Virus record (IMG/VR): IMGVR_UViG_3300023178_000030
Location: 1-64,000 of that record
Length of the DNA stretch: 64,000 nt
From: a virus
Direction: 5' to 3' (one strand)
Positions 59,235-62,622 of this stretch are shown here, piece after piece; position 1 is the stretch's first letter, and each line of letters starts with the position of its first letter. The notes beneath the pieces were generated by a model. It did no database searches and was not told where the DNA came from. It saw nothing but the letters and a program-made list of their open reading frames with translations. Made by a program: the position numbers and the translations under genes.

Positions 59235-59306
59235 TTACTTGTTTGCAATGTACATTGTAACTTCAAAACCAAATCTCATTTCAGTATATTCTGGTGACTT
59301 CCACAT
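59235..59306 (-). CDS. pqqA: PqqA, PQQ precursor peptide (23 aa)
   Basis: On the minus strand, ATG 59306-59304 follows AAGGAG with 8-bp spacing and ends at TAA 59235-59237. The 23-residue product starts [12 protein letters not shown] and contains GFEVTMY. It has Glu at 15 and Tyr at 19, the positions cross-linked to form pyrroloquinoline quinone in the 23-residue Klebsiella PqqA. Length, MW start, Pro5 and the EVTxY core all agree. No pqqBCDE genes are in the window, so host enzymes would have to process it. A terminator lies just downstream on both strands. Confidence 0.88.
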   Translation of the reverse strand: [23 protein letters not shown]

Positions 59307-59398
59307 AATACTTCTCCTTAATAATTATTAACACTAATATATATAATAAACACAAAAAAATCACATAGTGATAATCATTAAAATCAAGTGAGAAAATC
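59307..59398. other. Intergenic region between pqqA and the divergent 59399 gene
   Basis: Very A/T-rich. It holds the pqqA ribosome-binding site on the minus strand. I see no consensus sigma70 or late promoter in either direction; ATATATATAATAAAC is the only -10-like material. Confidence 0.4.
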
Positions 59399-59632
59399 AT
59401 GAAAAAAGAAGATGCTAAAATAATCTTACTAAAAGATGTTATTGAAACAAAACTACGAAAAGAAAAAGAATTAGATTACTATCAAAAACAACTTGAAGAG
59501 CTTCAGATGAAAATGGTGTTTCTAAAAAAAGATATTCATTTAACTAACACTATTATTAATATTATCGAAAGTGAAAATATTATGCAATTAGAACCTTTAA
59601 TACTTGACAAAAACATAAGAGATGAGTTATAA
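59399..59632 (+). CDS. Coiled-coil hypothetical protein (77 aa)
   Basis: Charged heptads run through ETKLRKEKELDYYQKQLEEL and QMKMVFLKKDIHLTNTIINI. GTGAGAAAATC precedes the ATG, with weak ribosome-binding character. Its last codons carry the promoter at 59604-59633, so its transcript leads into the structured element downstream. No family is recognised. Confidence 0.6.
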   Translation: MKKEDAKIILLKDVIETKLRKEKELDYYQKQLEELQMKMVFLKKDIHLTNTIINIIESENIMQLEPLILDKNIRDEL

Positions 59633-59633
59633 T
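59604..59633 (+). promoter_or_regulatory. Sigma70-like promoter for a structured leader RNA
   Basis: TTGACA 59604-59609, an 18-bp spacer and TATAAT 59628-59633, overlapping the stop of the preceding gene. Transcription should start near 59640, about 15 nt before the structured element. Confidence 0.8.
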
Positions 59634-59654
59634 TACTGTTCTTTCTTAAAATAA

Positions 59655-59729
59655 AAGAGTATGTAAGGCGCTAGTATTCGTGATGAAGTTGAGTCTGGAT
59701 TCAGGTGCTAGGTCTTACATATTCCTCTT
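59655..59729 (+). ncRNA. Structured 75-nt RNA element in the leader of the 59736 gene
   Basis: TATGTAAG (59660-59667) pairs with CTTACATA (59714-59721). After a TTC bulge, AAGAG (59655-59659) pairs with CTCTT (59725-59729). Inside, CTAGTA (59671-59676) pairs with TGCTAG (59706-59711) and TGAGT/ATTCA (59690-59694 with 59699-59703) closes a CTGG loop. The element ends 6 bases before ATG 59736, which has no ribosome-binding site of its own. It could be a cis-regulatory element or a processed small RNA. Tested as tRNA and rejected. Confidence 0.65.
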
Positions 59730-59735
59730 ACGATT

Positions 59736-59984: not shown

Positions 59985-60712
59985 TGTTTAATTTAAATAA
60001 AACAATTGAAGTCCATTGTTATACATGGAGAAAAATAAATGCAGAAGAATTTTGTATTAAAGAGATGAAACCACATAGACCAAAATGGTTTAGAGATATG
60101 GGAAAAATGACTGGAACTAAATGGAATCTTCCAAAGTTAAATATAAAACATTGTCATGGTATTCTTGAATTATTTAAAAGAAGTTTTTATCTTCCTTTAT
60201 GGACTGACTTATATATTATTAATGAAATGCATGATATAAATGCTATATCGAAAGATTCTTACCTGATAGTTTCAAAACATTTTGATAAAGCTAATTCACA
60301 AGCTCCAACTTTATCAGAAAAACACAGAAATCTTAAAATAGATGCTCCTTGGATTTTTGATTGTGATAAAGATATTAATTTTTATATTACTGGTGCATCA
60401 TGGGATTATATAAACAACGACTTATTTTATAATTTTCATTTACCTCCAGCTATACTCGATTTTAAGTATCAATCATGTCTTAATACACAATGGTTATTTC
60501 CAATACCATTTACAAAAGAACAAGAAACTTGTATAAGTTTTCAAGCAGGTGATCCATTATATTACATAACTCCATTAACAGATAAAAAAGTTAAATTTAT
60601 AAGTCATTGTATTACTAAAACAGAATTTTTTGATAAATTTGATAGTTTAGATCGTACTACTTCGTTTTGGTCAAATGCTTATGCAAGAGGAAAAAAACTA
60701 ATGGGTAAATGA
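59981..60712 (+). CDS. DUF6065-like protein, paralogue A
   Basis: It begins MMFNLNKTIEVHCYTWRKI and has RPKWFRDMG, YLPLWTDLYI, APWIFDCD and GASWDYINNDLF, then FQAGDPLYYITPLTDKKVKFISH. The protein at 61326 shares all of these in the same order and has the same length (243 aa). The fold resembles cupin-like DUF6065 proteins. It is coupled to an oxygenase gene by ATGA overlap, and the second copy follows that oxygenase. Substrate unknown. Confidence 0.7.
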   Translation: MMFNLNKTIEVHCYTWRKINAEEFCIKEMKPHRPKWFRDMGKMTGTKWNLPKLNIKHCHGILELFKRSFYLPLWTDLYIINEMHDINAISKDSYLIVSKHFDKANSQAPTLSEKHRNLKIDAPWIFDCDKDINFYITGASWDYINNDLFYNFHLPPAILDFKYQSCLNTQWLFPIPFTKEQETCISFQAGDPLYYITPLTDKKVKFISHCITKTEFFDKFDSLDRTTSFWSNAYARGKKLMGK

Positions 60713-61323
60713 TGGAACAAGTATTAGAGAATTTTTATACTGAAGATGAGATAGATAGAATTTGGAAAGAAATACAATATTTAGATTCTAATACTTATGG
60801 TTGGGCATATCCAAATCCACAAATAAATGCAGTTGATAAAAAAGGTAATCTACTATTACAAGGTGCAAGACAATTTAAGTTTAGTATATTTGGTTATAAT
60901 AACCTTGAACTGTTGAGAAAGTCTAACATTTATACTTCAGGTAAAAAACTTATGAATTACCATGATTATTTAGTTGGTAAACATGATATTTATAAAAATA
61001 TTAAGGAATTAGATCGTCATTTTTCTTTTTTAAATTACTACTATAAAGATGATGGTTGTTACAAATTACATCATGATATATCCATGTATACAATGTTATC
61101 GTATTTTTACGAAGAGCCTAAAAATTTTACAGGTGGTCAATGTCTTGTAGGAAATAACAAATATGAAATACATAATGGATTTACAATCGTGTTACCAGGC
61201 TGGTTAAAACATGGTTCAACACCAATAAAAATAATCGATAAATCTAGAAAAAAATCTGGAAGATATTCTATTGCACACTTTTTCTGGTCAGCAAACTCTA
61301 ACGATTTTGAGAGGAAATCATAA
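60709..61323 (+). CDS. 2-oxoglutarate/Fe(II) oxygenase flanked by paralogous genes
   Basis: CYKLHHDISMYTMLSYFYEE gives the HxD pair; LPGWLKHGSTPI gives the distal His; SGRYSIAHFFW provides the arginine for 2-oxoglutarate. At 204 aa. MEQVLENFYTEDEIDRIWKE is a typical opening of prolyl-hydroxylase-like phage enzymes. Its position between two DUF6065-like paralogues suggests a joint modification pathway. Overlaps paralogue A by 4 bp. Confidence 0.78.
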   Translation: MMEQVLENFYTEDEIDRIWKEIQYLDSNTYGWAYPNPQINAVDKKGNLLLQGARQFKFSIFGYNNLELLRKSNIYTSGKKLMNYHDYLVGKHDIYKNIKELDRHFSFLNYYYKDDGCYKLHHDISMYTMLSYFYEEPKNFTGGQCLVGNNKYEIHNGFTIVLPGWLKHGSTPIKIIDKSRKKSGRYSIAHFFWSANSNDFERKS

Positions 61324-61325
61324 AT

Positions 61326-62057
61326 ATGATGTTCAATTTTAATAAAACAGTTGAAATTCATTGTTACACATACAATAAATTTATTGCAGATAATTTTTGT
61401 GTACAAGAAATGAAAACTACAAGACCATCATGGTTTAAAAACTTACCTAAAAAATCTGAAAAAAAATCAACAATGAAAAGTTGTTATGGTTTTATAAATT
61501 TATTTAAAAAAGGATTTGTTCTCCCTTTTTGGAGTGATATTGAAATTACAAACACAATAGAAGAATTGGTTGTAAATTGTGCAAATCAAGATACAACTAA
61601 TGTTTTACATCACTTAAATCCAAATAATTCATCGGCTGAAACTTTATCAACATATCACCGTCATGCACAAATACAACCACCTTGGGTTTTTACATCTGAC
61701 AAACCTACTGAATTTGCAGTTGTAGGTGCTTCATGGGATTATATAAACAATAATCTATATGATTTTCATTTACCCACAGGTATTATTGATTTTAAATACA
61801 ACAATACAATTAATGTACAAATGTTGTTTCCTAAACCAACTGGAAATCAAAGACAATCAAATATAATTTTTAAAGCTGGCGATCCAATATTATATTTGAT
61901 TCCTTTAACTGAAAAGAAAGTTAAATTTATTACACATAATATTACTAGAATGGAATATTATGATATGATAGACAATGTAGATTCAAAGTCACATTTTTTT
62001 AGTAACAAATATGTTAGGTCTAGAACATATGGATATAAAGGATATATGAAGGAGTAA
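61326..62057 (+). CDS. DUF6065-like protein, paralogue B
   Basis: The opening MMFNFNKTVEIHCYTYNKF, then RPSWFKNLP, VLPFWSDIEI, PPWVFTSDK, GASWDYINNNLY and FKAGDPILYLIPLTEKKVKFITH mirrors paralogue A. Identity is moderate by eye, so the duplication is not recent. The ATG lies 2 bp after the oxygenase stop. Confidence 0.7.
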   Translation: MMFNFNKTVEIHCYTYNKFIADNFCVQEMKTTRPSWFKNLPKKSEKKSTMKSCYGFINLFKKGFVLPFWSDIEITNTIEELVVNCANQDTTNVLHHLNPNNSSAETLSTYHRHAQIQPPWVFTSDKPTEFAVVGASWDYINNNLYDFHLPTGIIDFKYNNTINVQMLFPKPTGNQRQSNIIFKAGDPILYLIPLTEKKVKFITHNITRMEYYDMIDNVDSKSHFFSNKYVRSRTYGYKGYMKE

Positions 62058-62059
62058 TT

Positions 62060-62305
62060 ATGACACCACAAGAATCAAATACCCTATATAGATTACATAC
62101 AGTAATAATGCAAGAGATCGAAAACTATCACTTTAGAGGTCAATATGACTATCATTTGAGAGTGAGAGTTGAAGATGATGAGATAAAATTTAGATATTTA
62201 AATGAGTGGCATCCTATATCAAAAGAAACACTATTTAAGATGTTAAAACAGAGTAACTTACCACAAAGTTTATATACTAAATTAATGTTAAGGATAGTAC
62301 AATGA
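62060..62305 (+). CDS. Hypothetical protein (81 aa)
   Basis: Residues RLHTVIMQEIENYHFRGQYDYHLRVRVEDDEIKFRYLNEW and a terminal helix (SLYTKLMLRIVQ) suggest a small alpha/beta fold. AAGGAG precedes the ATG, and it overlaps the cytochrome gene by 4 bp. No family is recognised. Confidence 0.6.
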   Translation: MTPQESNTLYRLHTVIMQEIENYHFRGQYDYHLRVRVEDDEIKFRYLNEWHPISKETLFKMLKQSNLPQSLYTKLMLRIVQ

Positions 62306-62622
62306 TTAAATTTATTTTAATGTTTTTATTTACATTCAATGTCTATGCAACAGATGAAGGTTACAAGATGTTGAAGAACAACAATTGTTTAGCTTGTCAT
62401 GCAGTTGATAAAACACTAGTAGGCCCATCATATCAAGATGTTGCGAAGAAATATGAGAATGACGATAGAAGTATTGTAGTACCTGTTCTTGCAAGAAAGA
62501 TGCGTGAAGGTGGAGTTGGTAATTGGGGAGTTATTCCTATGCCACCAATGAACTTAAGACATAATCAATCAGAGTATATAGTTAAGTGGATTTTGAATAG
62601 AGAGTGGGAAACTACTAAATAA
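62302..62622 (+). CDS. Periplasmic cytochrome c (c551-like)
   Basis: A signal peptide (KFILMFLFTFNVYA, cleavage before TDEG) is followed by the haem site CLACH at residues 29-33, the GPSYQDVAKKY segment and an axial methionine in IPMPPMN (M80 or M83). The end is a helix (EYIVKWILNR). This is the plan of small class I cytochromes of the c551/c552 type, which shuttle electrons in the periplasm, including from PQQ dehydrogenases. Haem attachment would need host Ccm enzymes. It overlaps the preceding gene by 4 bp. Confidence 0.92.
   Translation: MIKFILMFLFTFNVYATDEGYKMLKNNNCLACHAVDKTLVGPSYQDVAKKYENDDRSIVVPVLARKMREGGVGNWGVIPMPPMNLRHNQSEYIVKWILNREWETTK

Follow-up and report, generated by a model that had tools for sequence, protein, structure and literature searches.

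PqqA, the precursor peptide of pyrroloquinoline quinone (PQQ), has already been encountered in viruses. A T4-like methylotroph phage from Lake Baikal was reported in 2020 to carry both pqqA and a viral methanol dehydrogenase (PMC7678222), and a list of viral genes from reservoirs published in 2026 also includes pqqA (PMC13188868). Here we describe a 64,000-nt stretch of viral DNA (the window; positions 1 to 64,000 of the 78,962-base IMG/VR record IMGVR_UViG_3300023178_000030) in which pqqA lies close to a gene for a c-type cytochrome of the c551/c552 class. Like Lake Baikal VP_139/VP_266 (PMC7678222), the window appears to belong to a T4-like methylotroph phage with pqqA as an auxiliary metabolic gene. 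In contrast to them, no methanol dehydrogenase was found here, and the word 'cytochrome' is absent from the text of PMC7678222.

The isolate Melnitz (MZ577097) offers a second comparison. It is also T4-like, its host H5P1 is an OM43 methylotroph, and where its pqqA lies intact the annotation instead shows a hypothetical gene on the opposite strand. Unlike in the window, this pqqA is located elsewhere, beside tRNA-Leu and gp5-like genes, and no c551-type cytochrome was found in the complete Melnitz genome with a c551 profile or by tblastn. On the cytochrome side, the c551 of Pseudomonas aeruginosa and the c552 of Hydrogenophilus share the fold, heme motif and Met ligand of the window protein, which differs from both in being phage-encoded and in having a C-terminal extension past the last helix. 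In Bacteria, Methylophilaceae possess 3–12 pqqA genes but as a rule a single set of the remaining pqq genes (PMC4109929). Their pqqA copies resemble those of phages in standing alone with their own terminator, and the peptide is identical in some phages. Methylophilaceae also hold pqqBCDE (PMC4109929), whereas pqqB–E adjoined none of the 181 pqqA loci collected here, among the matches listed.

The first-pass annotation of this DNA had proposed that pqqA and the cytochrome gene form a phage module for PQQ-dependent respiration, and knew of no description of such a system. Our literature search, made mostly without subscription journals and preprints, found no paper on the pair or on how widely methylophages carry pqqA, and phage pqqA goes unmentioned in the publications describing Melnitz, MEP401/402 and Venkman.

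pqqA in the window and among methylophages

The record also contains T4 core genes, which place the region in a T4-like phage. Melnitz is its nearest isolate (68% identity for DNA polymerase, 73% for the clamp loader, 81% for ribonucleotide reductase and UvsX); the next isolates reach just 53–60% for DNA polymerase and clamp loader. The best reading is that of a marine-type virus of methylotrophic bacteria, OM43 or a similar beta-type methylotroph. A megablast search of phages with this region gave no match. Chance is excluded as the source of the region because it recurs almost letter for letter in contigs of two other samples, with both genes in L034/L058, and with a contig that begins inside the cytochrome gene in L061.

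The window pqqA (59235–59306, minus strand) encodes a peptide of 23 amino acids that scores well above the cut-offs of Pfam PF08042 (E 1.1e-9, 38.5 bits, cut-off 21.1) and NCBIfam TIGR02107 (E 1.3e-11, 44 bits, cut-off 20). The two residues that are turned into PQQ, the Glu-x3-Tyr pair Glu15 and Tyr19, are intact; the peptide also displays K3, S4 and an IANK end. The gene is preceded by a Shine-Dalgarno sequence (AAGGAGAAG / AAGGAGAAGT; 59310–59319, minus strand), and an A/T-flanked hairpin directly 3′ of it (59187–59212), found by a sequence scan, could serve as a terminator from both sides. T4 late-promoter boxes (TATAAATA) were no more frequent than expected by chance and a sigma-70 scan gave only background levels, so that no promoter is claimed.

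A tblastn search of 50,697 phage records with pqqA matched nine methylophage isolate records of six distinct kinds (MEP301, P19250A, MEP401, MEP402, Venkman and four Melnitz variants), in all of which the gene is not annotated as PqqA. The other matches were one uncultured podovirus from spring water and two records, filed as phage, that belong to a single bacterial assembly. The latter, Acinetobacter 'phage' matches, were rejected as bacterial chromosome: in L007 (CAKLQF020000010.1, 'Acinetobacter phage MD-2021a') a pqqA–E operon lies amid chromosomal genes. As judged from these matches, PqqA is specific to methylophages among phage records. No claim is made that every methylophage carries the gene.

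Pattern scans of IMG/VR returned 48 stretches in the first scan and at least 120 in the second. Eleven loci whose PqqA is of the enterobacterial type were excluded, since they are probably host flanks; 10 of them lie within about 550 nt of a stored end. At least 170 phage-like loci were left, with the isolates and the window counted in. For L014, L016, L019, L022, L023, L026, L029, L043, L045 and L049 the stored end lies about 300–550 nt from the gene; such contigs are perhaps prophages inserted beside the host pqq operon.

The phage-like loci fall into at least 44 gene neighbourhoods when grouped by common immediate neighbours. Among the matches listed, all 120 second-scan loci have Tyr19 and Thr17, two positions that the search pattern had left free, and the peptide is 23 residues long in all 115 second-scan loci having a start codon. 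Still among the matches listed, 146 distinct pqqA genes give a pS of 0.59 (synonymous) against a pN of 0.13 (non-synonymous), a Shine-Dalgarno motif precedes the gene at 158 of 169 phage loci, and a terminator is located within 80 nt of it at 70 of 169 loci, versus 5 of 169 at random places. By these substitution patterns, phage pqqA is under purifying selection. The commonest phage PqqA, present at 23 loci among the matches listed, is identical to all three copies of genome G318, one of the 1.3-Mb candidate host genomes with an XoxF-type dehydrogenase described below. With T4 core genes in the record of the window and host-identical peptides in related phages, pqqA is both set among phage genes and common to hosts, as befits an auxiliary metabolic gene of a lytic phage.

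pqqA thus turns out to be a widespread and almost wholly overlooked gene of methylophages, which has gone unannotated because it is so short; it illustrates how an auxiliary gene can escape annotation in this way. If most methylophages carry it, infection acts on cofactor supply and not on enzymes alone, and this 23-codon gene would be a practical marker linking viral contigs to PQQ-using hosts.

The c551-class cytochrome and its association with pqqA

The second gene (62302–62622, plus strand) encodes a predicted secreted cytochrome c of 106 amino acids. It matches Pfam PF00034 (28.9 bits, cut-off 21.3), its top PDB matches are cytochromes c551/c552 (E 2.5e-20), and its AlphaFold model (pLDDT, a per-residue confidence, 85.7) was superimposed by Foldseek on Pseudomonas c551 (351c) with a root-mean-square deviation of 1.5 Å. 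A putative signal-peptide-like N terminus, read by eye (MIKFILMFLFTFNVYA; 62302–62349), precedes the heme c attachment motif CLACH (62386–62400), whose Cys, Cys and His columns are invariant in the alignment; the axial Met80 lies in an IPMPP motif (62539–62541). The NCBIfam cytochrome c551 model NF045774 gave 20.5 bits, below its cut-off of 118. It is an 'exception'-type model, and no specific orthologue name is claimed for the protein. Pfam, NCBIfam, PDB and model evidence together confirm that PqqA and a cytochrome c are present where the first-pass annotation had placed them. A tblastn search of isolate phages with the cytochrome gave no match.

The two genes are separated by 2,996 nt. pqqA is a solitary minus-strand gene, and the cytochrome gene belongs to a plus-strand run; being on opposite strands, in separate transcription units, they do not form one operon. 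Both genes were found in five phage lineages, with gaps of about 0.1 to 12 kb: the window (3.0 kb), G859 (5.8 kb), L294 (1.2 kb; UvsX 82% identical to that of the window), a freshwater clade (G030/G031/G042/G050/G061; 0.1–1.3 kb) and G041/G043 (about 11.8 kb). Starting from the cytochrome, 33 other virus records hold a c551 relative, and pqqA is present in 7 of these, each of them one of the 14 records that measure at least 40 kb. No viral PQQ dehydrogenase was found in 34 records searched.

The comparison with G859 is the most informative, since its DNA polymerase is 45% identical to that of the window and the two genes nevertheless keep orthologous neighbours. pqqA comes after the same three genes (58127–58711, 58711–58824 and 58782–59126, plus strand; 70–89% identity in G859 at 11795–12758, with pqqA there at 13450). 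The cytochrome gene comes before the same two (62625–62915, plus strand, and 62994–63611, minus strand; 58% and 82% identity in G859 at 8708–9667, with the cytochrome gene there at 7273–7680). The pair has therefore been kept through a long divergence. The G859 orthologue (L439:7273–7680) retains a CMSCH motif but has a Cys at the axial Met position and has lost other conserved positions; its sequence would fit a His/Cys-ligated heme c or possibly a decaying gene. A PF00034 search of 66 other pqqA records found no cytochrome above the cut-off, and the diverged G859 protein, at 16.1 bits, is missed by it.

Candidate hosts and interpretation of the pair

Several 1.3-Mb genomes of the order holding these betaproteobacteria contain 2–3 pqqA copies, an XoxF-type PQQ dehydrogenase and one c551 homologue, and fit OM43/Methylopumilus-type Methylophilaceae. 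Methanol oxidation by XoxF ranks with the most strongly expressed activities of bacteria in coastal waters (PMC5120137), and Melnitz infects a methanol-grown OM43 host. The expectation of a host with a PQQ dehydrogenase is supported as far as the candidate hosts go. In two larger methylotroph genomes (G377 and G406) the gene for the c551 homologue begins where a PQQ dehydrogenase gene with the DYD motif that marks XoxF ends, which provides a direct genomic link between this class of cytochrome and methanol dehydrogenase. In work cited in PMC9851590, PqqA peptide added to cell extract was converted to PQQ at 70–80%. Together with the surplus of pqqA in Methylophilaceae, this points to PqqA supply as a limiting part. 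The pqqA copies of G318 (L373, L372 and L374) lie scattered and singly in the genome, laid out as they are in phages, and some of them may have come from phages.

It is probable, in our view, that the window holds two auxiliary genes, each acquired separately, that serve a single host pathway without forming an obligate module. PqqA would be translated from its own short transcript and consumed, one peptide per PQQ, by PqqE/D, PqqB and PqqC of the host. Its role as a consumed substrate of the host enzymes is well supported by its sequence, by selection and by host identity. The extra peptide would benefit the phage by sustaining PQQ supply and keeping the host XoxF methanol dehydrogenase running while host expression falls in infection. 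The cytochrome would be exported, receive heme c from the maturation machinery of the host and, going by what its class does, add capacity for carrying electrons through the periplasm to the terminal oxidase, either from methanol dehydrogenase by way of the dehydrogenase's own cytochrome, from bc1, or from both. A link with XoxF is suggested by the methylotroph homologues, and joint action of the two genes is plausible. We infer that both are expressed in infection, that PQQ is formed from phage PqqA and that the cytochrome meets such electron partners. More tentatively, this may be one form of a strategy shared by aquatic methylophages, in which a tiny stand-alone pqqA, overlooked by annotation, feeds the host PQQ pathway, some T4-like phages have repeatedly added a c551 of their own that widens the same electron route from methanol to oxygen, and the G859 branch may use a Cys-ligated heme. 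The pairing with a cytochrome provides a testable example of viruses that enlarge electron transport on the downstream side of a quinoprotein.

How far the two genes belong together is where the evidence pulls in different directions. A dedicated, obligate module for PQQ respiration would account for their closeness in the window and four other lineages. Against it, such a cytochrome is missing from Melnitz and from nearly all whole pqqA records, the transcription units are separate, and none of the searched records encodes a PQQ dehydrogenase. Independent occurrence in many relatives rules out the obligate form, and we regard this explanation as improbable. The first-pass annotation had itself named independent occurrence in relatives as the result that would overturn a tight module, and this is what was found: Melnitz has pqqA only, and nearly all whole pqqA records and half of the longer cytochrome records are unpaired. 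Of the co-occurrence that it had named as support, five lineages give instances. The opposite extreme, in which PqqA serves PQQ supply, the cytochrome takes part in respiration at large or in the removal of peroxide, and a plastic accessory region has made them neighbours, is a rather unlikely explanation. Proteins of the c551 type also supply electrons to di-heme peroxidases and to transfer from bc1 to the oxidase. Half of the longer cytochrome-bearing records do without pqqA, the two genes cannot be co-transcribed from opposite strands, and in G859, L101/L104 and the freshwater clade a peroxiredoxin gene accompanies the cytochrome with about the same consistency as pqqA does. Co-occurrence in five lineages, neighbours that are orthologous between the window and G859 although the polymerases are distant, and the position of some methylotroph c551 homologues directly behind XoxF argue against this explanation.

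Two further explanations concern the individual proteins. Some phage cytochromes could be degenerating or repurposed and no longer be c551 electron shuttles, as the Cys and lost positions of the G859 orthologue and the long branch and unusual composition of the window protein might suggest; because the window protein retains all heme ligands and gives a confident c551 model, we consider this quite improbable. Since PqqD binds PqqA, itself a small peptide, a phage copy might act as a decoy or regulator of the host, for example by occupying PqqD/PqqE, and not as a PQQ precursor. Nothing specific favours this very improbable explanation. A decoy would need no PQQ-forming residues, whereas Glu15 and Tyr19 are invariant, the length is conserved and the sequence is host-identical in related phages.

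Several observations weigh against the reading as two auxiliary genes acting on one pathway of a methylotroph host. pqqA is lacking in 7 of the 14 cytochrome-bearing virus records of at least 40 kb. A c551 profile run on 53 whole pqqA records detected a cytochrome in one (G859) and none in the other 52; the Melnitz genome likewise has pqqA without it. The assignment of the candidate hosts to Methylophilaceae rests on order, genome size, XoxF and pqqA copy number. No candidate host examined has a PqqA identical to that of the window. In the tree of cytochromes, which does not place the window protein, neither kinship with freshwater phage cytochromes (approximately unbiased test, p-AU 0.39) nor with those of the 1.3-Mb methylotrophs (p-AU 0.16) was rejected.

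Neighbouring genes and further observations

The genes between pqqA and the cytochrome gene have no evident link to PQQ by their family matches. A 2-oxoglutarate (2OG)-Fe(II) oxygenase-like gene (60709–61323, plus strand; phrog_61, E 1.4e-4, with PF13640 below cut-off) is flanked by two similar genes of 243 amino acids (59981–60712 and 61326–62057); the first matches phrog_7084, a family of unknown function. Just upstream of the cytochrome gene, an 81-amino-acid gene (62060–62305, plus strand) overlaps its start by 4 nt, and the two probably share a transcript.

Peroxiredoxin genes near phage c551 genes in G859, L101/L104 and the freshwater clade are located at L439:3342–4458, L101:4066–4563 and L085:6330–6896; in the window phage such a gene lies at 37486–38070, 24 kb from the cytochrome gene. 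The same phage encodes a peptide deformylase (window 1881–2423), an IscA-type iron-sulphur assembly protein (G000 64369–64740) and a formyl transferase (G000 76287–76901). G030 (L068–L074, 140 kb) is a freshwater T4-like phage rich in auxiliary metabolic genes, in which, besides pqqA and c551, we recognized by eye genes for GroEL/GroES, DnaK, ClpB and ClpP and curli-like, porin-like and adenylate cyclase-like genes.

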